DNA of 48,764 nt. Source: Pelagibacteraceae bacterium AG-325-E08. GTDB taxonomy: Bacteria; Pseudomonadota; Alphaproteobacteria; Pelagibacterales; Pelagibacteraceae. Every line of letters starts with the position of its first letter. Positions within the stretch are counted from its first letter, which is position 1. A program made the position numbers and the translations under genes. The notes beneath the pieces are model-generated. The model saw only the letters and a list, made by a program, of their open reading frames with translations. It was not told the DNA's origin and made no database searches. This document shows positions 21,824 through 40,929 of this stretch, in pieces. The stretch is taken from the NCBI GenBank assembly GCA_003282985.1, contig QBYE01000008.1:1-48764 (forward strand), given 5' to 3'.

Positions 21824-22180
21824 ATGGCAAGAGTTAAAAGAGGTGTTACAAGTAAAGCTAAACATAAAAAAGTCCTAAAAGCTGTTAAGGGTCAATGGGG
21901 AAGAAGAAAAAATACAATCCGAGTTGCAAAGCAAGCTATGGAAAAAGCTTTGCAATATGCTTACAGAGATCGTAGAAATAAAAAAAGGGACTTTAAATCT
22001 CTTTGGATACAAAGAATTAATGCAGGCGTGAGATCTGAAGGTATGACTTATTCTAGGTTTATTAATGGATTAAATAAGTGTGGAATTAAAATTGATAGAA
22101 AAATTCTAGCTGAGATAGCGTATGATAGTCCAGAAGCCTTTAAAATTATAGTTCAAAAAGCACAATCTGCTTTAAATTAA
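21824..22180 (+). CDS. rplT: 50S ribosomal protein L20
   Basis: A 118-residue basic protein needed early in 50S assembly. The start [19 protein letters not shown] and the region [20 protein letters not shown] are diagnostic of bL20. The C-terminal globular half ([17 protein letters not shown]) is the part that in E. coli and Bacillus represses its own operon. It begins 1 base after the rpmI stop. A 43-base spacer separates it from pheS. Confidence 0.97.
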
Positions 22181-22223
22181 TCTTCACTATTGTTTTATTT
22201 TTCTGAATAAATAATCTGTAAAG

Positions 22224-23291
22224 ATGTCTGATCTAAAAAAAATAAGAGATGAATTTATCTTAAAACTAAATGGTAAATTAGATTTCTCAGAGATAGATCA
22301 AATAAAATCAGATCTATTTGGTAAAAATGGATTGATTTCATCTCAATTTAAAAAAATTAGAACGATGGTTGAGTCTGAAAGAAAAAAATTTGCATCCGAT
22401 TTGAATGTTATTAAAGATGAGCTACAAGATCTTATAAATTCAAAAATAAATGAAATTGAAAATGCAGAAATAAATAAAAAATTAGATAAAGAAAAAATTG
22501 ATATAACTTTACCAGAAAGACCTTTTGTTAGAGGAAAAATTCATCCAGTTTCACAAACAATTGATGAAATATCGTCTATATTTTCTGAGATAGGTTTTAG
22601 CGTAGAAGAAGGTCCTGATGTCGAAAATGAATATAATAATTTTACTGCACTAAATACTCCTGACAACCACCCAGCAAGAGATATGCACGACACTTTTTAT
22701 CTAGATGAAAAAAAACAAAAACTATTACGTACTCATACTTCTCCAGTTCAAATTAGAACTATGTTAAAAGACAAACCGCCATTTAAGATTATTGCACCTG
22801 GTAGAACTTATAGATCAGATAGTGATCAGACACATGCTCCTATGTTCCACCAAGTTGAGGGTTTACATATAGACAAAAATATAAATATGGGTCATTTGAA
22901 AGGATGTTTAAATTATTTGATCAAAGAGTTTTTTGAAGTAGATAAAATAAAAATGAGATTTAGACCAAGTCATTTTCCTTTTACTGAACCATCTGCTGAA
23001 GTTGATATTGGATACGAAATGAAAGATGGGAAAATAATAATTGGAGAAGGTAATCAATGGCTAGAAATTTTAGGATGTGGTATGGTTCATCCAAATGTTT
23101 TAAAAAATGTGAAAGTCGATCCAGCAAAGTTTCAAGGTTACGCATTTGGTATTGGCATTGATAGATTGGCAATGTTAAAATATGGAATCAATGATTTAAG
23201 AGCATTTTTTGATTGTGATTATAGATGGCTGAATCATTTTGGATTTGATCCTTTAGATGTACCAACAAACTATAGAGGCCTTAGTAGATGA
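22224..23291 (+). CDS. pheS: Phenylalanyl-tRNA synthetase alpha subunit
   Basis: A 355-residue catalytic subunit of the alpha2-beta2 enzyme. The N-terminal coiled coil (about residues 1-85) binds tRNA. The class II core follows, with [12 protein letters not shown] near 171 (motif 2 region), [20 protein letters not shown] near 192, and motif 3 GFGIDR-like sequence ([14 protein letters not shown] near 311). Length is close to the usual 330-350. It overlaps pheT by 4 bases (ATGA), a standard coupling of the two subunits. No phe leader peptide is visible upstream. Confidence 0.96.
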
Positions 23292-25693
23292 AAATCACAT
23301 TTGATTGGCTTCAAGATCATTTAAAAACTAATTTAAAAGAAAAACATCTTTTAGAACAACTTACCAATATAGGATTAGAAGTGGAAAGTGTGGATAGTCT
23401 CTCTGCTGATAATGAGCTATTTAAAATAGCAAAAATTGTTAAAACTGAAAAACACCCAAATGCAGATCGACTTAAAGTTTGTGATGTCGATGTTGGAGAA
23501 AAAGAATTTAAAAAGGTTATTTGTGGGGCTGCTAATGCAAGAAAAGGACTAATTACTATTTATGCACCTCCAGGTGCAACTATTCCTAAAACAAAAACAA
23601 AATTAGCTGTATCCAAAATTAGAGGTGTCACTTCTTATGGAATGCTTTGTTCAGAGTCTGAATTAGATTTGTCTAATGAAAGTGAAGGGATAACTGAATT
23701 ATCAACTAAATATGAAAAAAATATTGGAAAAAAATTTTTTTCAAAATCAAAATCCAATCTTATTGATTTATCAATAACACCTAACAGACCAGACTGTCTT
23801 GGCGTTAGAGGAATAGCCAGAGATCTTGTTGCATCAGGTTTTGGAAAACTGTTGGAGTTAAAAGAAAAAAAAATTAAATCAACAACAAAACAAACTTTAA
23901 AAGTTAAAATTAATAGAGAAAAAAATCAAGGATGTACTGCTTTTGGTAGCTGTTTAATTACAAATGTAAAAAATACAGAAAGTCCCCGATGGCTTAAGGA
24001 TAAATTAATTTCAGTTGGTCAAAAACCAATATCAGCGATAGTTGATATTACAAATTATGTTATGCTTGATATAAATCGTCCACTACATGCATATGATGCT
24101 GATAAAATTGAAAAAGGTATAATTGTTCGAAGTTCAAATTCTGGAGAAAAATTTACTGCTCTAGATAATAAAAATTATAAATTAGAGAAGGGCATGTGTG
24201 TGATAAGTGATCAAAAAGGAGTTTTAGGATTAGGAGGAATTATTGGAGGAACCAGATCAGGAACAGAATTAGATACTAAAAATATATTGTTAGAGTCAGC
24301 CTATTTTGAACCAAGATCAATAAGAAATACATCAAAAAAATTAAATCTTGATACAGATGCAAAGTTTAGATTTGAAAGAGGTATTGATCCATCATCCATT
24401 GAAGATGGTTTAAATAAAGCAGCACTTTTAATCAAAGACATTTGTGGTGGAGAAATTAGTAAAATTGATATTCAAAGAATTGAAACAAGCAAAATTAAAA
24501 CTATTAAATTTGACCCTAATTTATTTGAGAAAATAACTGGATTTAAGATTTCAATTAAAGAAATATTTAAAATCTTAGAAGATCTTGGTTTTAAAATTAA
24601 AAAAGAAAAAAAAAATTTAAAATTAACTATTCCAACATGGAGACCCGATATTTCACAAGAAATAGATATTGTTGAAGAGTTAGTAAGAATAACTGGATAT
24701 GATAAGATCAAAATTATTGATCCAAATAAAGAAAGAACTAAATCTACTTTAACTCAATCACAAAAATTATTTCATTTCTTACAAAGAGCAATTGCTTCAA
24801 AAGGTTATTTAGAGGCAATAACATGGTCATTTACTAACTCAAATTACAATGATCATTTTAAAGATAAAAATAAAGAAATTAAGATTGTAAATCCAATAAG
24901 TTCAGATTTAGGAGTGTTGAGAAACTCAATATTTTCAAATTTAATAATGTATATGAATAAGAATTTAGACAGAGGTTTTAAAGATTTATCAATATTTGAA
25001 ATAGGTCCTGTTTTTACCGGTTCTAATCCAGGTGAACAAAATACTGTAGTATGTGGTTTGTCGGTAGGTAAAAAATCAAGATTATCATGGATTGAAAGAG
25101 AGAGAAATGTTGATGTATTTGATGTTAAAAGAGATGTAGTTCAAACTTTAGTTGAAGCAGGGTACAATTCAAATAATTTTTTTATAGATAATGAAACTCC
25201 AAATTATTACCATCCAGGGAAGTCTGGTAGATTGTTTTTAAATAGAGACAAAGATAAAGTCGTAGCTTATTTTGGGGAAATACACCCTAATATTTTAAAA
25301 AAGATAGATCTAAAAACAGAGTCTTTAGTAGGTTTTGAAATTTTAATAGATAATTTGAAATTACCAAAAAAAACACTTAATGATCAAAAAACTAAATTCG
25401 AAGTCTCTGATTATCAAAAATCTGAGAGAGATTTTGCATTTATAGTTGCTAAAGAGGTAAAAGCTCAGGATTTAATTAATGCTATTTCGAAAGTGGATCA
25501 AAAATTAATTAGCAATATTAATGTTTTTGATATTTATGAGGGTGAAAATATTCCCGAAAATAAAAAATCAATAGCAATTAGTTTAACCATACAATCAACC
25601 GAGAAGACATTAAATGATAATGATTTAGAAAACATTAATGATTTAATAATTAAAACTGTTGAAAGCAAAACTGGCGCCAAGATACGTTCTTAA
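23288..25693 (+). CDS. pheT: Phenylalanyl-tRNA synthetase beta subunit
   Basis: An 801-residue partner of PheS. The order is the N-terminal EMAP-type tRNA-binding domain (about residues 40-150, [15 protein letters not shown]), B3/B4 editing domain (about 210-385), B5 (about 405-475), a core-like domain, and the C-terminal ferredoxin-fold anticodon-binding domain (about 708-800, [14 protein letters not shown]). Length is normal. It is 5 bases upstream of lepA, so the whole thrS to lepA stretch appears to be one transcript. Confidence 0.96.
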
Positions 25694-25698
25694 AGTAA

Positions 25699-27504
25699 AT
25701 GAGCAATATTGATAATATTAGAAATTTTGCAATTATTGCTCATATTGACCATGGAAAATCTACGATAGCGGATAGAATAATCCATAGCTGTGGTGGACTT
25801 ACTGAAAGAGAAATGAAAGCTCAAGTTTTAGACTCAATGGATATTGAGCGTGAAAGAGGCATTACAATTAAAGCTCAAACAGTAAAGCTCAATTATAAAG
25901 CGAAAGATGGCAAAGATTATATTTTAAATATTATAGATACCCCAGGTCATGTAGATTTTAGTTATGAGGTAAGTAGATCTCTTTATGCCTGTGAAGGTTC
26001 AATTTTAATTGTTGATAGCACTCAAGGCGTAGAAGCCCAAACTCTCGCAAACGTTTATCAGGCTCTTGATATTAATCATGAAATAATTCCAGTTTTAAAT
26101 AAAGTAGATCTTCCGGCTTCAGATTTAGATAGAACAAAAACACAAATTGAGGAGGTGATAGGCATTGATACAGAGGGAGCAATTCCTTGTTCAGGAAAAA
26201 CAGGTGAAGGTATAGAAGATATTTTGGAACAAATTATTAAAGTTTTACCCAGTCCTAAAGGTGAAAGTTTAGGTGATCTAAAATGCTTATTGGTTGATAG
26301 TTGGTATGATACATATTTAGGGGTTGTTATTCTTGTAAGGGTTATTGATGGTAAAATTTCAAAAAATATGAAAATTAAAATGATGTCCACTAATCAAGAA
26401 TATATTGTTGAAAAAGTTGGTGTTTTTACACCAAAAGCTAAAGATATTAATGAGTTAAACGCTGGAGAAATAGGCTTTATAACAACAGGGATAAAAGTTT
26501 TATCTGAAACAAAGGTTGGTGACACAATATGTGATGTTGCAAAACCTTTGAAAGAAGCACTCCCAGGTTTTAAACCAAGTAAACCCGTAGTATTTTGTGG
26601 ATTATTTCCGGTAGATAGTTCTGAGTATCAAAAATTAAAAGATGGTTTAGCTAAATTACAATTAAACGATGCAAGTTTTTCATTTGAAACTGAGTCTTCT
26701 TCAGCATTGGGACTAGGGTTTAGATGTGGTTTTTTAGGATTACTTCATTTGGAAATTGTTACTGAAAGATTAGAAAGAGAATTTGACGTAAACTTATTAA
26801 CAACAACCCCGGGAGTTGTATATAAAGTTCATATGAATAAAGGAGATATAATTGATCTACATAATCCTTCAAGTTTACCAAATCCAACATTAATTAAAAT
26901 GATTGAAGAACCATGGATAAAAGCAACAATAATAACTCCAGATGAATATTTAGGCTCAATAATAAAGATGTGTCAGGATAAAAGAGGAGTGCAAACTAAT
27001 TTAAGTTATTCAGGAAATAGAGCAGTTGTAAATTATGAATTACCTTTAAATGAAGTTGTTTTTGATTTTAATGATCGTTTAAAATCAATGACTAGTGGAT
27101 ATGCTAGTTTTGATTATGAAATAATTGAACATAAAGAAGGTGATTTAGTAAAACTTGGAATTTTAGTTAATGCAGAACCAGTCGATGCATTAGCAATGAT
27201 GATACATAAAGATTTTGCTCAAAAGATAGGTAGAGAAGTATGTGAAAAATTAAAAGATTTAATACCTAGACACAATTTTATGATTCCAGTTCAGGCTGCA
27301 ATAGGTGGTAAAATAATAGCAAGAGAAACGATAAAAGGCTTTAAAAAAGACGTTTTAACCAAGATTCATGGTGGAGGTGCAACTGACAGAAAAAGAAAAC
27401 TTTTGGAGAAGCAAAAAAAAGGTAAAGCAAGATCAAAACAGTTTGGTAGAGTAGAGATACCACAGGAAGCATTTATAGGAGTGCTAAAAATACAAAAAGA
27501 ATAA
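25699..27504 (+). CDS. lepA: Elongation factor 4 (LepA)
   Basis: A 601-residue translational GTPase that acts on 70S ribosomes under ionic or cold stress and in initiation/biogenesis. G1 is AHIDHGKST near residues 14-22, G3 is DTPGHVDF near 80, and G4 is NKVDLPA near 134. The EF4-specific C-terminal domain is present, ending with [18 protein letters not shown], which reaches the peptidyl-transferase region. Length is the family standard. It lies 1 base before the oxidoreductase gene. Confidence 0.97.
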
Positions 27505-27505
27505 T

Positions 27506-28537
27506 ATGGAAAATATAAATTGGGGTATCTTAGGGCTGGGAGATATAGCCAATACATTTTCGAAAAGTTTTGAAGAAACATCAAATGCTAAACTTTTAGC
27601 TGTAGCAAGTAAAGATCTTGAAAAACTAAATAAATTTAAAGATAAATTTAATTTCGAGAATAAATTTTTATTTAACAATTATGAAGATTTAATTAATTGC
27701 AAGGAAGTAGATATTATTTATATTGCATTACCTAATTTTTTACATCATCATTGGGCATTAAAAAGCATCAGAAATAAAAAGCATGTTCTTGTAGAAAAGC
27801 CAGTAACTTTAAATCTTAATGAAATCAAAAATATTAAAAAAAACCTTGATGACAAGAAAATATTTTTTGGTGAAGCATTTATGTATAGGTATCATCCACA
27901 AATTAAAATAATTTTAGATATTATTAGAAATAATGACATTGGTAACTTGCTCAATATGAAATCTCAGTTTGGGACTAATTTTTTATCAAAAAAAAAATTA
28001 TGGTTTTTTAATAAAAAAAAAAAAATTGACCCTAATAGTAGACTTTTTAGTAAAAAATTAGGTGGTGGTTGTATTTTAGATTTAGGATGCTATCCATCAT
28101 CATTTAGTTTATTAATTTCATCTTTAGCATCAAAAAAAGATAAATCAGAAATAAAACTATCAAATATTTTTAGAGAAATGGGTGAGACTAATGTCGATGT
28201 AGATTGTTATGCCAAAATTATATTTGAAGATAATTTTTTTTCAGAAATCTATGCTTCATTTAAAAAAAACTTAGGTAGAAAAACTGAAATTCATGGTGAA
28301 AAAGGTTCAATAGTTATCAATGATAGCTGGTTTGGCAGTAAAAGTATTATTAAAAAAGATTATAAAGGAGAACGGGTTATTAATATAAACAATATAAAAA
28401 AAAGTATTTACTCTTATCAAATTGAAAATATTAGCGAAGTTATACTTAACAATTTATACAAACCTAAATTTCCAGGTATCAGTTTAAATGAAAGTATAAT
28501 AAATATGAAAATAATAGAAGATTGGCAAAATGCGTAA
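27506..28537 (+). CDS. Gfo/Idh/MocA-family oxidoreductase
   Basis: A 343-residue NAD(P)-dependent sugar-type dehydrogenase. The N-terminal Rossmann motif is GILGLGDIA near residues 7-15. EKPVTLN near 98-104 supplies the family's conserved EKP lysine, and FMYRYHP near 121-127 begins the C-terminal substrate domain, with GGGCILDLGCYP near 185. Such enzymes oxidise or reduce sugars, inositols or nucleotide-sugar intermediates. It overlaps the next gene, a GT17 glycosyltransferase, by 8 bases, which suggests a sugar-modification role together. Substrate unknown. Confidence 0.85.
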   Translation: MENINWGILGLGDIANTFSKSFEETSNAKLLAVASKDLEKLNKFKDKFNFENKFLFNNYEDLINCKEVDIIYIALPNFLHHHWALKSIRNKKHVLVEKPVTLNLNEIKNIKKNLDDKKIFFGEAFMYRYHPQIKIILDIIRNNDIGNLLNMKSQFGTNFLSKKKLWFFNKKKKIDPNSRLFSKKLGGGCILDLGCYPSSFSLLISSLASKKDKSEIKLSNIFREMGETNVDVDCYAKIIFEDNFFSEIYASFKKNLGRKTEIHGEKGSIVINDSWFGSKSIIKKDYKGERVININNIKKSIYSYQIENISEVILNNLYKPKFPGISLNESIINMKIIEDWQNA

Positions 28538-29336
28538 GAATAAAATTTATGACTGTATAACTTTTTTTCAAGAAAACTTTATTACAAACATTAGGTTTGA
28601 GATTTTAAATAAGCATGTAGATTTCTTTATTGTTTGTGAAAGTATCTACGATCACAGAGGAAAAAAAAAGGATATAAATTTTAAATTAAAAAATCCTTAT
28701 TTTAGAGACAAAGTAAGACATATTATTTTAAGAGATCCATTTCCAGAAAAATTGAATTCATGGGAAAGACAGGCTTTTCAAAGAGAATATATTTTTAACG
28801 GAATTAAAGACTCTCATGACGAAGATTATATTATGTTTTCAGACCCAGATGAAATCCCTAGGCCAGAAGAATTGAAAAATTTTATTTTAAAAAAAAAATA
28901 TGCAATTTTTCAACAAAAATGTTTTAACTATAAATTTAATCTCTTAAATATAAGTGAAACTCCTTGGTCTGGAACTAGGCTGACAAAAAGAAAGTTTTTA
29001 AAATCGTTTGATTATATGAGACAGAAAATACTAAAAAAAAATATAAAAAAATGGTGGAAATTTAATGTTGAGCGAAATATTCAAATTATAGATGATGGAG
29101 GTTGGCATTTTAATAATTTATTTTCCCCTGAGATGATATCAATTAAGTTAAAGACTTTTGCTCATAATGAGTTTGCAGCAGAAGAGTATAGTAATATTGA
29201 GATTATAAAAGAAAAAATTGATCAAAAAAAAGATTTATTTAATAGAGATCACAAGTTAGAGAGGGTAGATATTGACGAAACATATCCTGACTATATTATT
29301 AAAAAAATGTCAGAACTAGAAAAGTTTATATTATAA
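28530..29336 (+). CDS. GT17-family glycosyltransferase
   Basis: A 268-residue enzyme resembling glycosyltransferase family 17, the family of the eukaryotic bisecting N-acetylglucosaminyltransferase MGAT3. Recognisable elements are the opening YDCITFFQEN, the acidic metal/donor motif SDPDEIPRP near residues 109-117, SWERQAF near 73 and GGWHF near 189. No signal peptide or membrane helix is present, so it should act in the cytoplasm. The gene is lysine-rich and A+T-rich even for this genome. It lies at the end of the lepA run, coupled by overlap to the oxidoreductase, and precedes the rmlB remnant. Confidence 0.8.
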   Translation: MRKNKIYDCITFFQENFITNIRFEILNKHVDFFIVCESIYDHRGKKKDINFKLKNPYFRDKVRHIILRDPFPEKLNSWERQAFQREYIFNGIKDSHDEDYIMFSDPDEIPRPEELKNFILKKKYAIFQQKCFNYKFNLLNISETPWSGTRLTKRKFLKSFDYMRQKILKKNIKKWWKFNVERNIQIIDDGGWHFNNLFSPEMISIKLKTFAHNEFAAEEYSNIEIIKEKIDQKKDLFNRDHKLERVDIDETYPDYIIKKMSELEKFIL

Positions 29337-29350
29337 TAATTTTTATTTAC

Positions 29351-29458
29351 TTAAATTTTTATTTTTTTAGGATTTTCTTTAGATCTATCTACATGAGTTT
29401 CAACTGCTAAATTAAATATACCAATAGGATTATATTTTTTAAAAATTTTTTGATAGTC
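29351..29458 (-). pseudogene. Remnant of dTDP-glucose 4,6-dehydratase (rmlB)
   Basis: A 35-codon open stretch on the minus strand, with no start codon and ending at TAA 29351-29353. It reads KIFKKYNPIGIFNLAV then ETHVDRS, matching the RmlB segment in which a helix precedes the HLAAESHVDRS core (NAD-binding strand plus the conserved SHVDRSI motif). The rest of the roughly 340-residue enzyme is absent: the frame meets TGA at 29459-29461 and then, 19 bases on, tRNA-Ser. The second Ala of LAAE is Val and the Ile after DRS is Lys, consistent with decay. It is evidence of a lost dTDP-sugar (rhamnose-type) gene. Confidence 0.75.
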
Positions 29459-29479
29459 TCAGACTTAAAAATTATAAGA

Positions 29480-29569
29480 GGAGAGATGGCTGAGTGGTTG
29501 AAAGCGCACGCTTGGAAAGTGTGTAAAGAGGCAACTCTTTCGTGGGTTCGAATCCTACTCTCTCCGCCA
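29480..29569 (+). tRNA. tRNA-Ser (anticodon GGA)
   Basis: A 90-base class II tRNA with acceptor arms GGAGAGA/TCTCTCC, discriminator G and encoded CCA at 29567-29569. The anticodon stem CACGC/GTGTG holds loop TTGGAAA, giving GGA, which reads UCC and UCU. The long variable arm (TAAAGAGGCAACTCTTTC) forms the serine-specific hairpin, and the T-loop GGGTTCGAATCC is normal. Confidence 0.97.
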
Positions 29570-29572
29570 ACT

Positions 29573-30274
29573 CTAATCTTTTATCAATAATTTATTAAGA
29601 TACTTGTAGTGTTTTTTTGAAATAAATATTATAAAAAAAAAAATTAGGTTGTTCCAAATGTTTATCTTTTTTTTAAATGTCCAATCGAAATTATTATGAT
29701 CAATGCCTGAACCATTATATGAATAATTAAATTTTAAAAATTTTTTTAATATATTAATTTTTTGATTAAAATCTAATTGTAGATGTTCAAAAGAGAAGTT
29801 CGTAATTTCGAATTTTTTTAAGTTTATATCTTGAATAACTTCATAATCCATTCCCTCTATATCAATAGAAAAATAATTAATTTTTTTATCATTGAAGTTT
29901 TTATCTAGAAATTCGTTTATTTTTATACAATCAATGTATTTAAATTTAATCCTATTTAAATCTTTGTAATATTTTTTAACATGTTCAATATCATTTGAAA
30001 ATAGTTGATAGTGTGGAGCGTCGTTCAAACTATAATAAAATTTAATTTTTTTTTCATACTTGACTGAAGAAGAGATCGCAAAATTAAAAATTTTTACATT
30101 TTTATAATTTTTCCATGTTTCCTCTAATTTTGAAATATTGGATGGATTTGCCTCTACAACATATATTCTTTTGTCGTCATCATCAATTTGTTTAACAAAT
30201 TCTGAAAATCCATCCCTAAAAAGTGCTCCTGCATCTAAATCACCAGCACCAGCTCCAATATGAACATAAATCAT
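29573..30274 (-). CDS. FkbM-family methyltransferase
   Basis: A 233-residue S-adenosylmethionine-dependent methyltransferase. The SAM motif I region is IYVHIGAGAGDLDAG near residues 2-16. A later strand motif is VVEANPSNISKLE near 39-51, and the FkbM-typical core is YFSIDIEGMDYEVIQDI near 134-150. FkbM enzymes O-methylate sugars or other glycan/polyketide hydroxyls, fitting a surface-polysaccharide context with the GT17 gene and the rmlB remnant. The tail is very Lys/Phe/Ile-rich. Its stop lies 3 bases from the convergent tRNA-Ser, so read-through would be antisense to that tRNA. No recognisable gene precedes it in the 150-base gap to gyrB. Confidence 0.85.
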   Translation of the reverse strand: MIYVHIGAGAGDLDAGALFRDGFSEFVKQIDDDDKRIYVVEANPSNISKLEETWKNYKNVKIFNFAISSSVKYEKKIKFYYSLNDAPHYQLFSNDIEHVKKYYKDLNRIKFKYIDCIKINEFLDKNFNDKKINYFSIDIEGMDYEVIQDINLKKFEITNFSFEHLQLDFNQKINILKKFLKFNYSYNGSGIDHNNFDWTFKKKINIWNNLIFFFIIFISKKHYKYLNKLLIKD

Positions 30275-30357
30275 CTTATATATTTAGAATTTTTTTGAAA
30301 AAAACTTTATCCAAATAATCATTGATTTTAAACAACTTTTTAGTTTGTTTTACTGTG

Positions 30358-30375
30358 TAATTTAAATTTAAATTA
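30358..30375. repeat. 18-base A/T-only palindrome upstream of gyrB
   Basis: A perfect self-complementary run, TAATTTAAATTTAAATTA, centred 58 bases before the gyrB ATG, inside the 150-base divergent region between fkbM and gyrB. It may be part of the promoter, but low-complexity A/T palindromes occur by chance in this genome. Nothing else is visible in the 30275-30424 gap. Confidence 0.45.
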
Positions 30376-30376
30376 A

Positions 30377-32488
<2,112 letters not shown>

Positions 32489-32491
32489 AAG

Positions 32492-33772
32492 ATGAAGTTG
32501 TTTGAAACTTCAAAGCAATATTCTTTAAAAAAATCAATATACATTAATCTTAGATGGATTGGAACCATTGGTCAATTTATATCAGTATATCTCGTATATT
32601 TTTACTTTAATTTTAATTTTAATTTTTTGTATTCAAATATTATTATAGCTATAGGAGTTATAAGTAATCTTTATTTAATTTTCATTTATAAAAAAACTCA
32701 ACTTAGTGATAGATCAGCTTTAGTTTATTTGTTTATTGATATTATTCAGTTAAGTGGACTTCTATATCTAACAGGGGGGATAGTAAATCCATTTGTAATT
32801 TTCTTAATTATTCCAAGTGTTTTTGCTTCATCAAATTTAAGTTTTAGAACAAACACCTTGCTAGTGTTTATTACTTCTATATCAATCTTATTTTTGACAT
32901 TTTACTCTCAGGAACTACCTGAGCCTCTAAACGACCATTTTCATGTTAGTCCTTATTATTATTATTCTATACCCTTGGCTTTGATAATAGCTTTACTTTT
33001 TTTAAATTATTTTGCCATTATTTTTGGAGCAGAGTCTAAGCTAAGAAAAGATGCTTTGAATAAAATGGAAGAAATAATGGCTAATGAGCATGAAATGCTA
33101 TCTTTGGGTGGTCAAGCAGCAGCAGCAGCTCACTCATTAGGTACCCCTTTATCAACAATTAAAATTATAACACAAGAATTGTCTAAACAACTTAAAGGAC
33201 AAAAAGACGTAAAACAGGATATCGAACTTTTATCTAGTCAAGTTGAAAGATGCAATGAAATATTAAAGAAATTATCCCTAAATCCCAATGAAGAAGATGA
33301 TTTTATTGATGAAGATTTATCAATGAGAGATTATCTTAAAGAAATTATTTTATCATTTAAAGAAACAAGTAAAAAAGATTTTATTTTAAATTTAGATCAA
33401 GATTTTAATTCTAAAAGGATTACAAAATCTATTGAGATTGTTTATGGTTTAAGAAATTTTATAGGTAATGCAAATAAGTTTTGCAAAAGTAAGGTTTTTA
33501 TTAGTCTAAAGAGTAATAGTGATTTTACAATAGTTGCCATTGAAGATGATGGAGATGGATATCCTAGTGATATTTTATCAAAAATAGGTGAACCATATTT
33601 GAGATCAACTAAGGCTTTTAATAAGGAAAAAAAAGGATTAGGTCTAGGACTATTCATAGGTAAAACCTTATTAGAAAAAAATTTTGCTTCAGTAAATTGT
33701 TCTAATTCTGAAACCAGAAGCGGAGCTGAGGTAGTAATTAAATGGAATAATAAAGATTTATTCAATCTTTAG
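32492..33772 (+). CDS. regB: RegB/PrrB-like redox sensor histidine kinase
   Basis: A 426-residue membrane histidine kinase with about six N-terminal transmembrane segments. The ubiquinone-binding heptad GGIVNPF is at residues 95-101. The phosphoacceptor is H214 in [13 protein letters not shown], the RegB-type H-box. C254 in QVERCNEIL lies 40 residues after H214, the same spacing as H225 and C265 of Rhodobacter RegB, where that cysteine senses redox state. ATPase boxes are N in [18 protein letters not shown] and [10 protein letters not shown]. In other alphaproteobacteria regB neighbours regA and senC; here it follows gyrB by 3 bases and overlaps the convergent cobT by 4. Confidence 0.9.
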
Positions 33773-35574
33773 TGTAAATTTTTTTTATTCTTAAATAATT
33801 CACTTAGTTGTGAAATCATTACGTCACCCAATTCGTTTACATCTGTAATTTTTATAGCTCTACTATAATACCTTGATACATCATGGCCTATACCAATTGC
33901 CAAAATTTCTGTTTCGGTTTTATCTTCAATAAACCTAACAATTTTTTTTAGATGCTTTTCTAAAAAATCTCCTGAATTAACAGATAGGGTTGAGTCATCT
34001 ACTGGAGCTCCATCTGAAATTACCATTAATATTTTGCGTTCTTCTTTTCTTTTTTTTAATCTGCTAAAAGCCCAGGAAATAGCTTCCCCGTCTATGTTTT
34101 CTTTTAATAATCCCTCTTTAAGCATTAAACCAAGATTATTTTTTGATTGTCTCCATTGTGTGTCAGCTCCTTTATAAATTATATGTCTTAAGTCATTGAG
34201 TCTTCCAGGTGTTTTTAATTTTCCTTCTTTATTCCATAATTCTCTACTTTTACCACCCTTCCAATTTTTGGTTGTAAAACCTAATATTTCAACTTTTACT
34301 GAACACCTTTCTAGAGTTCTTGACAAAATATCTGCACAAATGGCTGCTATAGTTATTGGTCTTCCTCTCATTGAACCAGAATTATCAATCAATAATGTAA
34401 CTACGGTATCTTTAAAATCTAAATCTTTTTCTTTTTTAAATGATAAAGAATTATATGGATCTAAAATAATTCGTGGCAATTTAGAACTATCTAATAATCC
34501 CTCTTCCAAATCAAATTCCCAAGTTCGATTTTGTTTTGCTAGTAGTTGTCTTTGAAGTTTATTTGCAAGTTTTGTTATTATATCTTGAAAACTGACTAAT
34601 TGTTGATCTAAGGTTTTTCTTAACTTTGAAGCCTCTTCAGAATTTTCTAGATTTTCAGCTTTGGTAATTTCATCAAATTTACTTGTGAAAATTTTATAAT
34701 CCAAATTTAAATCTGAGACATTTTTTTTTTGAAGAATCTGCTCTTTTTGTTGATCAAAATTTGTATCAACTAATTGTTCATCCAATCTATATTCATCGAC
34801 TTCATAATCAGAATCAAGACTGGCGTCTGTTTCGTCTTCTTTATTTTGATCCTTTTTATCCTCAGTATCGCTCTCTTGATCATCATTAGAGGGATTGTTT
34901 TGACCATCCTCTTGGTTTTCATCATTTTTTTCTTCGTTATCTTCATTTTGAAATATTTCCATTTCTTGTAATATTTCTGAAAATTTTGAGGAATATTCAT
35001 TTTGGAATTCCAAATTTTCTTTTAAAAAATCTATATGTTTTTCAATTGCTTGATCAAAGTCTTTTTCCCAGAAACTTAACATAGCTTTTGATTGTGTATT
35101 TAATTCTATTCCATGAAATTTTTTAAGCATATATAATTCAAAGGCTTCGTTTATGATAACATCTTCTTTGTTTTTTAACTGATCTTTTCTTTTTAATTCA
35201 ATTATTTGATTATAATTTTCTATAAGATTTTTTTGTATCCCTTTAAGCATTTTACAACCTAAAGATTCATATCTTATTTTCTCAGCAATAGAATAAAGAG
35301 ATTTACATGAGAAATTAGATGGTGAATTTTTCTTAAAAATTTTGTCATCAGAAAATTTTTTTTTTAAGGCCAAAGAATCAGCCTCAGCTCTTGCTTTAAT
35401 AAAATCACTTTTTGAGTCTAAATTTTCTAAATTAAAATTGTCAAAAAATTTTGATTTTTCATTCTTATCTGTCTTGTCATTGTATTTGAAATCATCCGAA
35501 ATTGCTCTTGCCGTGGATGTTAAAGCTTGTTTTAATTTTTCTTTTAAAATTTCATTCTTGTTGTCACTTTTCAT
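33769..35574 (-). CDS. cobT: CobT-like VWA protein (cobaltochelatase-type subunit)
   Basis: A 601-residue protein matching CobT. It has an N-terminal helical region, a strongly acidic Asp/Glu/Asn/Gln linker (about residues 200-250) and a C-terminal von Willebrand A domain. The MIDAS motif DNSGS is intact (D397, S399, S401), with the later metal-site region [11 protein letters not shown]. In aerobic B12 synthesis CobT works with AAA+ CobS and CobN to insert cobalt into hydrogenobyrinic acid diamide. No cobN or other corrin gene is visible here. The gene starts 1 base after the cobS stop. In organisms without corrin synthesis the CobST pair may act like MoxR/VWA chaperones; that is inference. 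Confidence 0.9.
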
Positions 35575-36549
35575 CTAAATTTGAATATTTGCTAGAGACT
35601 CAGGAAGCTCTTCTCCAAAACATCTTTGATAATATTCTGCAATAGTGTTTTTTTCTATTTCGTCACATTTATTCAAAAAGGTCACTCTGAAGGCATATCC
35701 TGTATCCTTAAAAATTTCAGCATTTTCTGCCCAATGTAAAACGGTTCTAGGACTCATTACTGTAGATATATCTCCCGCTATAAATCCTTTTCTGGTTAAA
35801 GAGGCTACCTTGATCATATTAGATACTTTCTCTTTACCTTTAGTATTATTTAAATTTTTATTTTTTGCCAAAACAATATCCATTTCTTTTTCAAGATTAA
35901 GATAGTTCAACGTTGTTACAATATTCCACCTGTCCATTTGTCCTTGGTTTATTTGTTGTGTCCCGTGGTAAAGGCCAGTTGTATCTCCTAGACCTACAGT
36001 ATTAGACGTAGCAAATAATCTAAAAAATTTATTTTGTTTAAGAACTTTGTTTTTATCTAAAAGGGTAAAGTTACCTTCTGCCTCGAGGATTCTTTGTATA
36101 ACAAACATTACATCCGGTCTACCAGCATCGTATTCATCAAAAACTAATGCAACTGGATTTTGAATAGACCATGGTAAAATTCCTTCATTAAATTGAGTAA
36201 CTTGTTTTCCATCTTTCAAAACAATTGCATCTTTTCCAATTAAATCAATACGACTTACATGACTATCAAGATTAACTCTTATACATGGCCAATTTAATCT
36301 TGCTGCTATCTGTTCAATATGTGTTGATTTACCTGTTCCATGGTAACCTTGAACTAAAACTCTTTTATTGAATGCAAAACCGGAAATTATTGCAAGAGTG
36401 GTATCTCTATCAAACTTATAACTCTTATCTATTTCAGGCACATATTCACTTTTTTCAGAAAAAGCTTTTACTTCCATTTCAGTATCAATTCCAAAAGATT
36501 GTTTTATGGAAACTTTTATATCAGGCTGTACGTTTAAGTTAGGTGTCAA
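35575..36549 (-). CDS. cobS: CobS-like AAA+ ATPase
   Basis: A 324-residue MoxR-clade AAA+ ATPase matching CobS. Walker A is GYHGTGKST at residues 68-76, Walker [12 protein letters not shown] near 136-146, sensor 1 ATSN near 181. The N-terminus resembles the CobS leader that in alphaproteobacteria precedes the ATPase. CobS forms a hexameric ring that binds CobT and drives the CobN chelatase. It overlaps the J-domain gene upstream by 11 bases and abuts cobT downstream, so the three form one operon with coupled translation. See cobT for the doubt about a cobalamin role. Confidence 0.92.
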
Positions 36550-37066
36550 TTTTTTTCCTATAAGTATTTTTTAGTTGAGTATAAGCTAATGTAATTAATT
36601 TAAGTTTTTCTTCATATTTTATATTTCCAGAATTCATATCAGGGTGAAATTTTTTGACAAGTATTTTGAATTTTTCTTGAACTTTTGTCCATTTTATACC
36701 CACTGAGACTCCTAAGATACTAAAGGCTTTTATATCTTTATGATCAAATTTAAATTGACGCATATGATTAAACTCACTTTTAAATTTTTCTTTATCTAAT
36801 TCATCTTTTAAAGTGTCATTCCATAAAACTTTAAAAAAGTTATCTGAAGAACTAAAGCTTTGTGTGGGTTTATGCCAAATCATGTCAGATTTTAAAAAAT
36901 CAATTACTTGCTGATCATCCATACCTGAAAAATAATTCCAATTCTTATTGAATTCTTTCACATGCTCTAAGCACAACATTCTGTATTTTTTACTATTATC
37001 CTTTTCTATTGGAGCCTTATATTCTCCATATTCTTTACAATTATTCCAGTCACAAATATTTTTCAT
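36539..37066 (-). CDS. J-domain protein adjacent to cobS
   Basis: A 175-residue protein with the J domain at its C-terminus: the FSILGVS start of helix I near residue 116 and the HPD tripeptide in [10 protein letters not shown] near 141, which stimulates DnaK ATPase. The N-terminal half has paired cysteines ([15 protein letters not shown] and MLCLEHV), a possible metal-binding knuckle. The start was placed at the ATG at 37066 (MKNICDW); the longer frame from 37102 adds a hydrophobic 12-residue leader and would overlap bolA's start. A J-domain gene beside cobS and bolA recurs in alphaproteobacteria. It is a likely Hsp70 co-chaperone with an unknown client. Confidence 0.82.
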
Positions 37067-37070
37067 GATA

Positions 37071-37076
37071 TATAAT
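37071..37076 (+). promoter_or_regulatory. Candidate -10 box for bolA in a 21-base divergent spacer
   Basis: TATAAT ends 11 bases before the bolA ATG, implying a leader of only a few bases. Only 21 bases separate the bolA and J-domain starts, so the -35 region would lie inside the J-domain gene. No Shine-Dalgarno sequence is visible on either strand. Confidence 0.3.
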
Positions 37077-37087
37077 AAATAATACTT

Positions 37088-37348
37088 ATGGATATAAATC
37101 AATTAATTGCAATTATAAAAAAAAAGTTATTAAATCAAATCAAAATAGACAATATCCTGATTGAAGACAAATCCTTCCTTCATAAAAATCATCCCGGCAA
37201 TCAACAAAATAAATTTCATTTAAAGATTTCTTTAAAGTCCAAAGAATTAAAAAAAATGAATAGAATTGAAAGTAATAAAAAAATTTATAATATTTTAGAA
37301 GAAGAATTAAAAAAATTTATTCATTCCTTGCAAATATTAATTGATTAA
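37088..37348 (+). CDS. bolA: BolA-family protein
   Basis: An 86-residue BolA-fold protein. The expected pattern is present: an N-terminal helix (INQLIAIIKKKL), a short strand with IEDKSFLHKNHPG in the position of the H-x-G loop, NKFHLKISLKSKELKKMNRIESNKKIYNILEE corresponding to HF.v.ivS..F.g...v.RHr.v...L, and the LQILI terminus. The RHR triplet common in BolA is degenerate here (NRIESNK). BolA proteins bind monothiol glutaredoxins and Fe-S clusters and affect iron homeostasis. It is divergent from the J-domain gene, and its end overlaps the aroB end by 12 bases. Confidence 0.82.
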   Translation: MDINQLIAIIKKKLLNQIKIDNILIEDKSFLHKNHPGNQQNKFHLKISLKSKELKKMNRIESNKKIYNILEEELKKFIHSLQILID

Positions 37349-38443
37349 TTCTTTTTTTAAAAATAGGCTTAGGGGAGCCTTTTTATATCTTTTGCTAATT
37401 ATTGGACTCCCAATCTTTTTTAATAAAACTAAATTTATTTTATTAGAATTATTTTTTTTATCTGTCATCATAAAATTCAAAATTTTATTGAGATCTTTTA
37501 ATGAAAAATATTTTTTTAAGTTAAATGGTAATTTTGAATTATAAATATGTTTTCTTATTAAGTTGTACTCTTTAAAATTTAAAAATTTATTTTTATAACT
37601 AAATGATAAAGCTGTATTCATGCCTAAAATTACAGCTTCACCATGATTTAATTTTTTAGAAAAACCTAATGATGCTTCATATGCATGAGCAAAAGTATGA
37701 CCAAAATTTAATATTTTTCTCATACCATTTTCTTTCTCGTCTTTTTCAACAACTAATTTTTTTATTTTACAACTTTCATATATAGCCTTATCTATAAATG
37801 GTGATTTAAGTTTTATAATATTGAAAAAATTTTTATTTAAAAAATTATAAAAAACTTTATTTGATATAATTGCGTGTTTCAAAATTTCACCATATCCACA
37901 AATAATCTCTCTTTTGCTAAGAGATTTTAAAAAATTTGTATCACTAATTACTAATCTTGGCTGATAGAAACTTCCAATAAGATTTTTCCCTTGATTTGTG
38001 TTTATTCCAGTTTTGCCTCCTATAGATGAGTCTACTTGAGATAGTAAAGTAGTGGGTATGTTTATAAATTTTAAACCTCTTTTAAACAAACTTGCAGCAA
38101 AACCACTCACATCACCTGTAATTCCACCTCCAACTGCTATTAAACAATCTTCCCTAGAAAAATTTTTATCAAGCAAAATTTGAAGTATTGAATTAGTTGT
38201 TTTTTGATTCTTATTTTTTTCATTAGCTGTTATTAAAAAAATAAATAATTTTTTATTTCTTAATGATTTCCTTATTTTAGAAATAAATTTTTTTGGAACA
38301 TTTTTATCTACCACTAATAAGCATTTTTCAAAATTTATTGAGTTATTAATCATTAACTTGGATATATTAGAGATTATATTAGAACCTATTAATATAGGGT
38401 ATTTTCCAGAACTTGATTTAATTATTAGTTTGGATATTTTCAT
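37337..38443 (-). CDS. aroB: 3-dehydroquinate synthase
   Basis: A 368-residue NAD-dependent enzyme that converts DAHP to 3-dehydroquinate, step two of the shikimate pathway. Conserved pieces are VGGGITGDVSGFAAS near residues 103-117, PTTLLSQVDSSIGGKTGIN near 129-147, GYGEILKHAII near 182, and the metal histidines in LNFGHTFAHAYE near 245 and LNHGEAVILGM near 265. Length is normal. It overlaps the end of aroK by 26 bases and converges on bolA with a 12-base overlap. The gene is strikingly Lys/Asn/Ile-rich but all core motifs are intact. Confidence 0.95.
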   Translation of the reverse strand: MKISKLIIKSSSGKYPILIGSNIISNISKLMINNSINFEKCLLVVDKNVPKKFISKIRKSLRNKKLFIFLITANEKNKNQKTTNSILQILLDKNFSREDCLIAVGGGITGDVSGFAASLFKRGLKFINIPTTLLSQVDSSIGGKTGINTNQGKNLIGSFYQPRLVISDTNFLKSLSKREIICGYGEILKHAIISNKVFYNFLNKNFFNIIKLKSPFIDKAIYESCKIKKLVVEKDEKENGMRKILNFGHTFAHAYEASLGFSKKLNHGEAVILGMNTALSFSYKNKFLNFKEYNLIRKHIYNSKLPFNLKKYFSLKDLNKILNFMMTDKKNNSNKINLVLLKKIGSPIISKRYKKAPLSLFLKKELIN

Positions 38444-38942
38444 ATTTATCTATAATTTTATTTATTATTTCAGTTTTTGATTTATTATTACAATTTATTT
38501 TAAATAAGGCTTTAGCATAATATTTAGATCTATTTTTAATCATATTTGTTAATTGAGTATTAGAAGTATTTAATACTAAAGGTCTTTTAGTACTATTTTT
38601 AATTCTTTTTATAAGCAAATCGCTGTTTAATTTAAGCCAAAAAGATAAGTGGTTATTAATAACTTCATTTCTTATATTCTTATTAATAAAAGCGCCTCCA
38701 CCCAAAGCAACGATAATTTGTTTTTTTTTCAGTATATCTAGTGTTAATTTTTCTTCAAGTTCTCTAAAAAATTTTTCACCCTTAATCTTAAAAATATTTG
38801 AAATTTTCATTCCTAACTTATCTTCTATACATTTATCAACATCAAAAAAATCTAATTTAAGTTTTTTAGAAATTAAAAAACCAATAGATGATTTTCCAGA
38901 TCCCATCATACCTAAAAACACAATATTTTTACTTGATTTCAT
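38418..38942 (-). CDS. aroK: Shikimate kinase
   Basis: A 174-residue kinase that phosphorylates shikimate at the 3-hydroxyl. The P-loop is GMMGSGKSS at residues 11-19, the shikimate-binding aspartate region is DFFDVDKCIE near 31-40, GGGAF lies near 80, and the lid KRPLV is near 117. The start was set at the ATG at 38942 (MKSSKNIVFLG); an upstream ATG at 39005 would add 21 residues with no counterpart in the family and would cross the divergent membrane-protein start at 39000. It forms a two-gene operon with aroB, overlapping it by 26 bases. Confidence 0.93.
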   Translation of the reverse strand: MKSSKNIVFLGMMGSGKSSIGFLISKKLKLDFFDVDKCIEDKLGMKISNIFKIKGEKFFRELEEKLTLDILKKKQIIVALGGGAFINKNIRNEVINNHLSFWLKLNSDLLIKRIKNSTKRPLVLNTSNTQLTNMIKNRSKYYAKALFKINCNNKSKTEIINKIIDKYENIQTNN

Positions 38943-38999
38943 AATTTTCTTTATTGAAAAATCACAAATATGTCTTAATTTGAAATTAACTAAAGTTAT

Positions 39000-39179
39000 A
39001 TGCAATTTATAAAAAAAACAAGTTCAAGTAAGAGTATTATTGGGATAATTACTAAAATAGCTTTAGTTTCAATTACTATTCTTTTAGTTATTTTTTTATT
39101 AAATAAAATAGATTTTCCCGCACCTAAAAAAGAAATAGAGAAAATAATTACTAATGAAAATTTTAAAATTGTTAAATAA
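39000..39179 (+). CDS. Small single-span membrane protein
   Basis: A 59-residue frame from ATG 39000 to TAA 39177-39179. It has a basic N-terminus (MQFIKKTSSSKS), one clear transmembrane stretch (IIGIITKIALVSITILLVIF split by one Lys, about residues 13-34) and a charged, Pro-containing tail (DFPAPKKEIEKI). It overlaps the start of the next gene by 26 bases, so the two are probably translated together; that gene encodes an exported protein, suggesting a membrane or envelope pairing. Not recognised as a known family. It is divergent from aroK with 57 bases between starts. Confidence 0.6.
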   Translation: MQFIKKTSSSKSIIGIITKIALVSITILLVIFLLNKIDFPAPKKEIEKIITNENFKIVK

Positions 39180-40929
39180 AAACAGTTTATCAATTATACT
39201 AATTTTGCTATTTGGACTTAATTCATTTGCAGAAGATCAACCTGTTGATATCTGGAACATTGATAAAGATAAATTAGAAACTAATTCTTCGAGTGATGAC
39301 GATAAGGCAATAAAAGAAGAAATAGTAATTGAAACAGAATTCAAATCTAATGTTTATAAAATGCAATCAGAGAAAAAGGTAAATGCAATTAACCTTGAAG
39401 ATAGATTTGGCTCACAGGAAATTAAAATTGTTGGATTGTATGATCCTGATGATTATGGTCTTAATATAAATATGTGGTCTAATACTAACGGAGACCAATT
39501 AAAAATTCTATTTGATAAATTAAATAAAATGCCTTTATCAAATGATGCTATAGAAATTATTAACATATCTCTTTTGACTAACTCTTATTATCCACAAAAA
39601 AATATTACAGAAAAAGAATTTCAAAAATTTAAATCAGATTGGTTAATTAAAAACTCAAATTTAGAACTTATTGAAGAATATTTGATTAAAAATCAAATCA
39701 TAAATTTACATCCACAATTAACTAAGTTTTTAGTCGATCAATATTTGTCAGATACGAATATTAAAAAGGCATGTGAAATTTTTTCAAAAAATACTGAGCC
39801 AATATTTGATGAATATCTTTCAAAATTCAATATTTATTGTTTAATTAAGGATAATAAAAAAGAGGAAGCACAGCTAATTTTAGATCTTAAAAAAGAACTT
39901 GGATTTAAAGATAAATATTTTGAAAAAAAGATTAATTATCTACTTGAGTATACAGACAAAATAGATGATGAAATTTCTGAAAAATCAATTTTTGATTTTT
40001 ACTTAGCTCATCAAACTAATCCAAATTTTAATTTTGAGCCAAATGATAAAACAAAGAAAATAATTTGGAAATATCTTTCCTCAGCCAATTTATTGAATTC
40101 TTTCAAAGAAACGGACACTTCTGAATTAGACAAAATTGCAACTATCGAAAAAGCAGTTCATAATCAGAATTATCCTGAAAAAGATTTATTAGAATTATAT
40201 AAAAGATTTCAATTTAATATAAATCAACTTTTAAATGCTAAAGATGCTTATAAAACTTTACCCAATATAGAAGCAAGAGCACTAGTATATCAAAAAATTT
40301 TATTAGAATCTGAAATAGTTGAAAAATTAAAATTTCTAAAGATATTAAAAGAATCTTTTGAAAATGATGGTCTAGCAAATGCTTTTGATACAGAGTTAAA
40401 AACGTTTCTTAAGGGCATAAAACCAACTGAGATACCAGATAATCTAACAAGTTTTTATTATACAAATATTAAAATTGAAAAAAATTTAGATAAAAAAATA
40501 AAAATTAATAATGATATTATTCATCAATCAAAGCTTATTAATTATTTCAATGGGGATTATGCAAAATCTAAAATTGAAAAAGATACTAATAACTTATTAA
40601 AGAAGATACAAAAAAACAAAAAATATTTTTTGTCTAAGAAAGATGTCATTTTGATAGAGTCATTAAAATATGATGGAATAGAAATCTCAGAAAAATATGA
40701 CGATTTATACAATATAGATGAAAATGAGATTCCAACTGATATTCAAATAATGATTAACAACGAAGAAACTGGTTTAGCTCTTTTGAGAATTGCTGAAGTT
40801 ATTGGTCAAGATAGAATTGAAAGAATTGATGAAGATACTATTTATTTTATAGTTACTACGCTCAATCAATTAAATATTGATAGAATAAGAAATCAAATAC
40901 TACTTCAAGTTCTCCCTTTAAAAGTTTAA
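39154..40929 (+). CDS. Exported alpha-helical protein of unknown function
   Basis: A 591-residue protein with a standard signal peptide: Lys-rich start, hydrophobic core (LSIILILLFGLNSFA, residues 12-26) and probable cleavage after SFA. No membrane helix follows, so the mature protein should be periplasmic or envelope-associated. The body is mostly amphipathic helices with alternating Lys/Glu/Leu patterns, which may be TPR/HEAT-like repeats from about residue 140 to 560, though no clear consensus repeat can be written. A single pair of cysteines occurs near residues 207 and 229. I do not recognise the family. It follows the small membrane protein gene with a 26-base overlap and lies 23 bases before def. 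Confidence 0.75.
   Translation: MKILKLLNKNSLSIILILLFGLNSFAEDQPVDIWNIDKDKLETNSSSDDDKAIKEEIVIETEFKSNVYKMQSEKKVNAINLEDRFGSQEIKIVGLYDPDDYGLNINMWSNTNGDQLKILFDKLNKMPLSNDAIEIINISLLTNSYYPQKNITEKEFQKFKSDWLIKNSNLELIEEYLIKNQIINLHPQLTKFLVDQYLSDTNIKKACEIFSKNTEPIFDEYLSKFNIYCLIKDNKKEEAQLILDLKKELGFKDKYFEKKINYLLEYTDKIDDEISEKSIFDFYLAHQTNPNFNFEPNDKTKKIIWKYLSSANLLNSFKETDTSELDKIATIEKAVHNQNYPEKDLLELYKRFQFNINQLLNAKDAYKTLPNIEARALVYQKILLESEIVEKLKFLKILKESFENDGLANAFDTELKTFLKGIKPTEIPDNLTSFYYTNIKIEKNLDKKIKINNDIIHQSKLINYFNGDYAKSKIEKDTNNLLKKIQKNKKYFLSKKDVILIESLKYDGIEISEKYDDLYNIDENEIPTDIQIMINNEETGLALLRIAEVIGQDRIERIDEDTIYFIVTTLNQLNIDRIRNQILLQVLPLKV

Follow-up and report, generated by a model that had tools for sequence, protein, structure and literature searches.

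A startless 35-codon frame on the minus strand beside a tRNA-Ser gene contains a true remnant of rmlB, the gene for dTDP-glucose 4,6-dehydratase. With a probability of about 0.9 we regard this remnant as the non-functional rest of an ancestral rmlB-rmlA pair that was lost through two short deletions, in a species represented by one assembly. The frame lies between lepA and gyrB, an interval that serves in Pelagibacteraceae as a slot for a varying set of surface-glycan genes.

The locus and the remnant

The stretch of DNA analysed here, called the window, covers 48,764 nucleotides of Pelagibacteraceae bacterium AG-325-E08, a marine member of the SAR11 group, and has a GC content of 28.8%; its own genome comprises 1.02 Mb in 34 contigs and is 88.7% complete. 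The gene order is lepA, Gfo/Idh/MocA oxidoreductase, glycosyltransferase family 17 (GT17), fragment, tRNA-Ser(GGA), FkbM methyltransferase and gyrB. The conserved left flank of the slot (25699-27504, plus strand) and the conserved right flank (30425-32488, plus strand) are genes which we take to be lepA and gyrB, judging by their sequences and by the constancy of their position among relatives. Both were placed on the relatives by tblastn, lepA also on the sister genome introduced below (98.5% amino acid identity).

Between the flanks are a full-length Gfo/Idh/MocA oxidoreductase (27506-28537, plus strand; PF01408, E 5.8e-23), a full-length GT17 gene (28530-29336, plus strand; PF04724, E 1.7e-12), an intact tRNA-Ser(GGA) found with ARAGORN (29480-29569, plus strand) and a 233-aa ORF of the FkbM methyltransferase family (29573-30274, minus strand; PF05050, E 1.6e-12). 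The sequence-only reading had named these three protein-coding neighbours correctly, as the Pfam matches show. It had also called the whole an eroded sugar island, which holds for the rmlBA module; Gfo, GT17 and FkbM are ORFs of normal length, and erosion is thus confined to rmlBA.

The frame runs from stop to stop at 29351-29458 on the minus strand, contains no ATG, GTG or TTG, and reads DYQKIFKKYNPIGIFNLAVETHVDRSKENPKKIKI. Its length, strand and missing start were as first described, while its distance to the tRNA, given as 19 bases, is actually 21. Similarity to RmlB was found with Pfam PF16363 (E 3.4e-4), with TIGR01181, the dTDP-glucose 4,6-dehydratase model (E 5.9e-4), and with the solved RmlB structure 8du1 (E 5.4e-5). 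At the DNA level the fragment is 95% identical over 86 bp to an intact rmlB of the sister genome G294 (E 5.9e-33), which makes it rmlB by sequence origin. Chance similarity to RmlB was considered and is ruled out by these matches. Against the TIGR01181 cut-off of 365.1 bits the remnant stays below with 19 bits, and the intact 341-aa G294 protein lies above with 399.7 bits.

The claimed RmlB core is therefore similar to RmlB far beyond chance, but only 29380-29455 (minus strand) derives from rmlB. This part consists of 22 in-frame codons corresponding to residues 69-90 of the 341-aa protein. It is followed by a remnant of rmlA, the gene for glucose-1-phosphate thymidylyltransferase, at 29359-29382 (minus strand, coordinates counted from the sequence), namely the final seven codons LKKILKK and the stop codon, where G294 has LRKILKK and stop. 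The 76 bp of rmlB are joined out of frame to these last seven rmlA codons, so that the odd C-terminus of the 35-codon frame is a misread rmlA tail. With RmlB the remnant shares the 22 codons of the conserved ETHVDRS region; more than 90% of the protein is missing, the start included, and the enzyme cannot be made. The remnant itself thus has no likely function.

Read from the alignment with G294, the rmlB core carries one substitution and one 1-bp insertion in about 75 bp. Since it is so little changed, the loss of rmlBA in the window lineage may be recent, and the word 'eroded' is possibly too strong.

No RmlB or RmlA above cut-off was found elsewhere in the window's genome, where at 88.7% completeness an unassembled copy is possible; the best other scores were 139 of 365.1 bits for RmlB and 38.4 of 360.65 bits for RmlA. 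The dTDP-sugar branch has therefore probably been lost, and the cell probably lacks the rmlBA route to dTDP-4-keto-6-deoxyglucose. This compound is a precursor of rhamnose and related surface sugars, and the probable loss of rmlBA gives a testable prediction about the surface of the cell.

The intact pair in a sister species

When positions 29337-29479 were searched against 399 same-genus genomes, the single strong relative was G294 (uncultured Pelagibacteraceae bacterium isolate AG-916-L21), which shows about 94-97% DNA identity to the window. The G294 matches are split, with 95% identity over query positions 34-119 and 96% over query positions 1-48, lying 1.6 kb apart. Collinear blocks of G294 cover window positions 21951-29384, 29370-29455, 29451-29580 and 30123-40598, with an identity of 94.5-95.8% in the long blocks and about 95% in the two short ones. 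For the single genes the DNA identity is 97.2% (lepA), 94.0% (Gfo/Idh/MocA), 95.3% (GT17) and 94.1% (gyrB), and the tRNA agrees in 88 of 90 bases (97.8%). Upstream of the tRNA, the window lacks only the sequence between the G294 collinear blocks.

This sequence contains, between GT17 and tRNA-Ser(GGA), a full-length rmlB and rmlA, both on the minus strand. The rmlA-like protein has 289 aa and scores 309.3 bits with TIGR01207, below the cut-off of 360.65. An intact homologue with collinear flanks is accordingly present in a close relative. Furthermore, when G294 and the ten next-best DNA matches of the fragment were inspected, 11 of 11 lay inside full-length RmlB matches. The two findings that had been named as telling against an rmlB fragment, absence of RmlB similarity and the same short ORF conserved with a start codon in many relatives, were thus not obtained.

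Two probable deletions and their junctions

At the first junction (29380-29384), where 1600 bp of G294 are missing, the shared motif is TAGAT, 5 bp within a 15-bp imperfect repeat, and rmlB after residue 90 is joined to the final rmlA codons. The second (29451-29455) has the 5-bp shared motif TGATA and lacks 303 bp of G294, the 5' part of rmlB and its leader; it connects rmlB, immediately ahead of residue 69, with a position that precedes the tRNA by 24 bases. For random breakpoints of similar spacing, at least 5 bp were shared in 0.016 and 0.019 of the draws. The intact sister pair, the collinearity, the breakpoints and the short homology are all seen directly in the two genomes.

On this basis, the common ancestor with G294 would have carried the rmlB-rmlA pair on the minus strand between GT17 and tRNA-Ser(GGA). 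Two deletions between 5-bp matching motifs, of about 1.6 kb and 0.3 kb, would then have occurred in the window lineage, taking nearly all of rmlB and rmlA and leaving the out-of-frame fusion. We infer slippage or microhomology-mediated joining as the mechanism, and the order of the two deletions is likewise a reconstruction. The loss could have been neutral, or favoured through a changed surface sugar, phage escape or streamlining. The event is of an ordinary kind and is unusually well documented.

Alternative explanations

An artefact of amplification or assembly, in which rmlBA is still present in the cell and a chimeric join arose during whole-genome amplification, is the strongest competitor and in our judgement improbable. 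Isolate names beginning with AG presumably denote single cells, from which we take G294 to be a single-cell genome and the window's genome to be perhaps another. MDA chimeras often begin at 2-21 nt of complementarity, according to passages of PMC1855051. The artefact would however need two separate joins in direct orientation, and direct joins of less than 10 kb make up 11 of 475 MDA chimeras in the same passages (PMC1855051), a proportion that weighs against it short of exclusion. On either side, moreover, the collinearity of the window with G294 extends over kilobases.

Genomic islands commonly sit at tRNA genes, and an island that integrated site-specifically at tRNA-Ser and was excised again could also have left a fragment; tRNA copies do occur in two relatives, as an exact 80-bp 3' copy in G069 and as a decayed 61-bp copy (77%) in G016. 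The window's interval, on the other hand, holds no second or partial tRNA copy, the breakpoints coincide with 5-bp motifs within rmlA, within rmlB and 24 bases ahead of the tRNA, and the three genes around the scar (Gfo, GT17, FkbM) gave no match to an integrase family. We consider excision still less probable than an artefact. The sequence-only reading had seen here the scar of a surface-polysaccharide cluster that recombined at the tRNA. Sugar genes have indeed been lost, as the G294 pair shows. The second half of the claim does not stand: the deletions end in rmlA, rmlB and the leader, and with an intact, unduplicated tRNA and no integrase beside the scar, recombination at the tRNA is unsupported for it.

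That the piece was imported already broken, as the ragged end of a cassette, would agree with the wide differences among slot cassettes of relatives. It is contradicted by G294, which has the full genes at the same position and the same bases flanking both sides of the scar, and we give it hardly any credence. Equally little is given to a short functional ORF or peptide: an open frame of 35 codons exists, but it has no start codon, its tail is an out-of-frame reading of rmlA, and G294 and the ten next-best DNA matches are all in full-length RmlB genes. The loss of an ancestral pair through two deletions is therefore the reading which we retain.

The reverse case in G294 and a third species

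G294 is itself a mirror case of the window, with rmlBA whole and the fkbM gene across the tRNA cut, so that the opposite half of the slot has been lost. Compared with the window, its fkbM has a 551-bp deletion at the 7-bp motif CTCTAAT, which is expected by chance in 0.4%. What is left of the G294 fkbM (L147, 10325-10477, plus strand of the locus) comprises 51 codons, is interrupted by two in-frame stops and extends as far as the tRNA.

In a third species, G248, the order is lepA, Gfo, GT17, tRNA, fkbM, gyrB, and rmlBA is absent. Its fkbM has 233 aa and is 85% identical, which indicates that the truncation in G294 is derived; its Gfo and GT17 are only 46-49% identical. Because G248 has no rmlBA, the pair is perhaps a recent gain in the window/G294 lineage and not part of an old large island. 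Given an ancestor of window and G294 that had the pair, rmlBA may either have entered that lineage or have disappeared from G248, and the low identity of the G248 Gfo and GT17 makes the choice less certain still.

The lepA-gyrB slot in relatives

For comparison of the slot we fetched 59 relatives, picked from the best tRNA matches listed among 90 same-genus genomes, and left out the other 31. Both flanks were in view in 49 of the 59, the remaining 10 being incomplete. Among the 49, the slot was empty in 13, occupied only upstream of the tRNA in 24, only downstream in 1 and on both sides in 11. Empty slots have 8-11 bases from the last aligned lepA codon to the tRNA, while the 36 occupied ones carry genes on one or both sides of it, and slot size ranges from 0 to 10 genes. 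The flanks are thus conserved and the content differs across these 49 relatives.

The content consists mainly of surface-glycan functions, judged from 130 proteins encoded in the 36 occupied slots of the 59-relative set. Pfam counts, among the 25 of 56 families listed and with overlap between families, are Glyco_transf_17 20, Epimerase 18, Glycos_transf_2 13, DUF4422 11 and Methyltransf_21 9. Sixteen proteins of G294, G394 and G246 were left out of this tally because these genomes had been chosen for having rmlB. The comparison of the interval, proposed with the original reading, thereby yielded both of the things looked for, variable glycan genes and, in G294, G065, G246 and G394, intact rml genes.

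A slot rmlB at 50% identity or more was present in 1 of the 59 relatives (G065), and G015 has a match at 42%. In all four genomes with intact genes (4/4), rmlB lies on the minus strand and rmlA comes after it; three of them, G246, G394 and G294, were found via the fragment itself. Of the 399 genomes, 186 have an RmlB gene at E 1e-50 or better; for those fetched that lie outside the slot, the nearby tRNA is mostly tRNA-Met. A DNA search with the tRNA region in 150 relatives gave mostly matches to the tRNA itself, the one fragment match without tRNA being the rmlB of G064 (83%). In the remaining fetched relatives, the fragment is absent from the region preceding the tRNA.

Additionally, the slots were scanned for gene fragments in 107 spacer pieces (19,845 bases). 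This gave 13 matches at E 1e-4 or better, and 0 on single-base shuffles of the same pieces. After removal of five matches at contig ends and one of nearly full length, 7 pieces in 6 loci are counted; these include the window and G294, and the G015 piece is weak.

Taken together with the mirror case, a two-sided exchange slot can be proposed tentatively, and we hold it to be somewhat doubtful: surface-glycan genes would be acquired upstream or downstream of the tRNA and lost again through short-homology deletions, sister species would keep different halves, and the locus would turn over quickly beside HVR2, with possibly phage-driven variability.

Two relatives, G003 (L068) and G007 (L097), have rmlA-like genes, 64-65% identical to the rmlA of G294, downstream of tRNA-Ser; no rmlB at 40% identity or more was found in the same downstream stretch.

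Relation to known islands

The slot belongs to a known kind of region, the hypervariable region or replacement island. Passages of Wilhelm et al. 2007 (PMC2217521) describe four such regions in SAR11, HVR1-4, among them a 48-kb HVR2 with surface genes between 23S and 5S rRNA and an HVR4 flanked by tRNA genes; they propose homologous recombination in the conserved flanks for the spread of these regions. As far as these passages go, HVR1-4 and the present slot are alike in that conserved flanks enclose a variable content with genes for the cell surface and for sugars, and in that close strains differ by gene indels. HVR2 differs in its position and its 48 kb, whereas the present slot is flanked by lepA and gyrB, has tRNA-Ser in the middle and holds 0-10 genes; the term gyrB has 0 occurrences in the text of PMC2217521.

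With the replacement flexible genomic islands of Lopez-Perez et al. 2014, as portrayed in the abstract of PMC4033161, the slot shares that one locus carries different genes for exposed structures in each lineage, but the present case shows short deletions inside the slot instead of wholesale replacement. A replacement island at tRNA-Ser(gga) in Methylophilaceae, outlined in parts of PMC10872708, is comparable, as there too a variable island adjoins tRNA-Ser(GGA) in a pelagic bacterium with a streamlined genome; this is a distant family, however, and the flanks here are lepA and gyrB. A limited search of the SAR11 literature returned nothing on a lepA-gyrB slot or a tRNA-Ser island, and novelty of the slot is not claimed.

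In the streamlined genomes of SAR11, gene loss is seldom met at an intermediate stage. As the sister G294 keeps the genes, the loss of rmlBA can be followed nearly base by base. Since the slot is small, the turnover of surface sugars is traceable in a large number of single-cell genomes more easily than with the 48-kb HVR2, and the slot is worth a survey.

tRNA-Ser as a probable insertion site

A second tRNA 3' end, beyond an insert, is absent from the window's interval and was found, among 60 loci, in G069 and G016; a third match, of 19 bp in G061, is negligible. In the slots of relatives, an integrase may occur among the families beyond the 25 of 56 listed. The copies in G069 and G016 indicate that insertion at tRNA-Ser probably happens in relatives, but it is not the cause of the scar in the window.

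The exact copy in G069 (L045, minus strand of the locus) lies 1.38 kb downstream of the full tRNA, and the insert contains a 287-aa gene whose product has a T5orf172 domain, while CTTGTCGTC motifs recur close to either end. This has the look of a very small element integrated at the tRNA. The decayed copy in G016 (L060) is about 2.05 kb downstream, just before gyrB, and is separated from the intact tRNA by two ORFs of 306 and 331 aa; it is perhaps an older insertion of the same kind. As a further observation on slot genes, the GT17 gene in the G246 slot (L162, 7544-8340) is split into ORFs of 135 and 100 aa, apparently by a frameshift.
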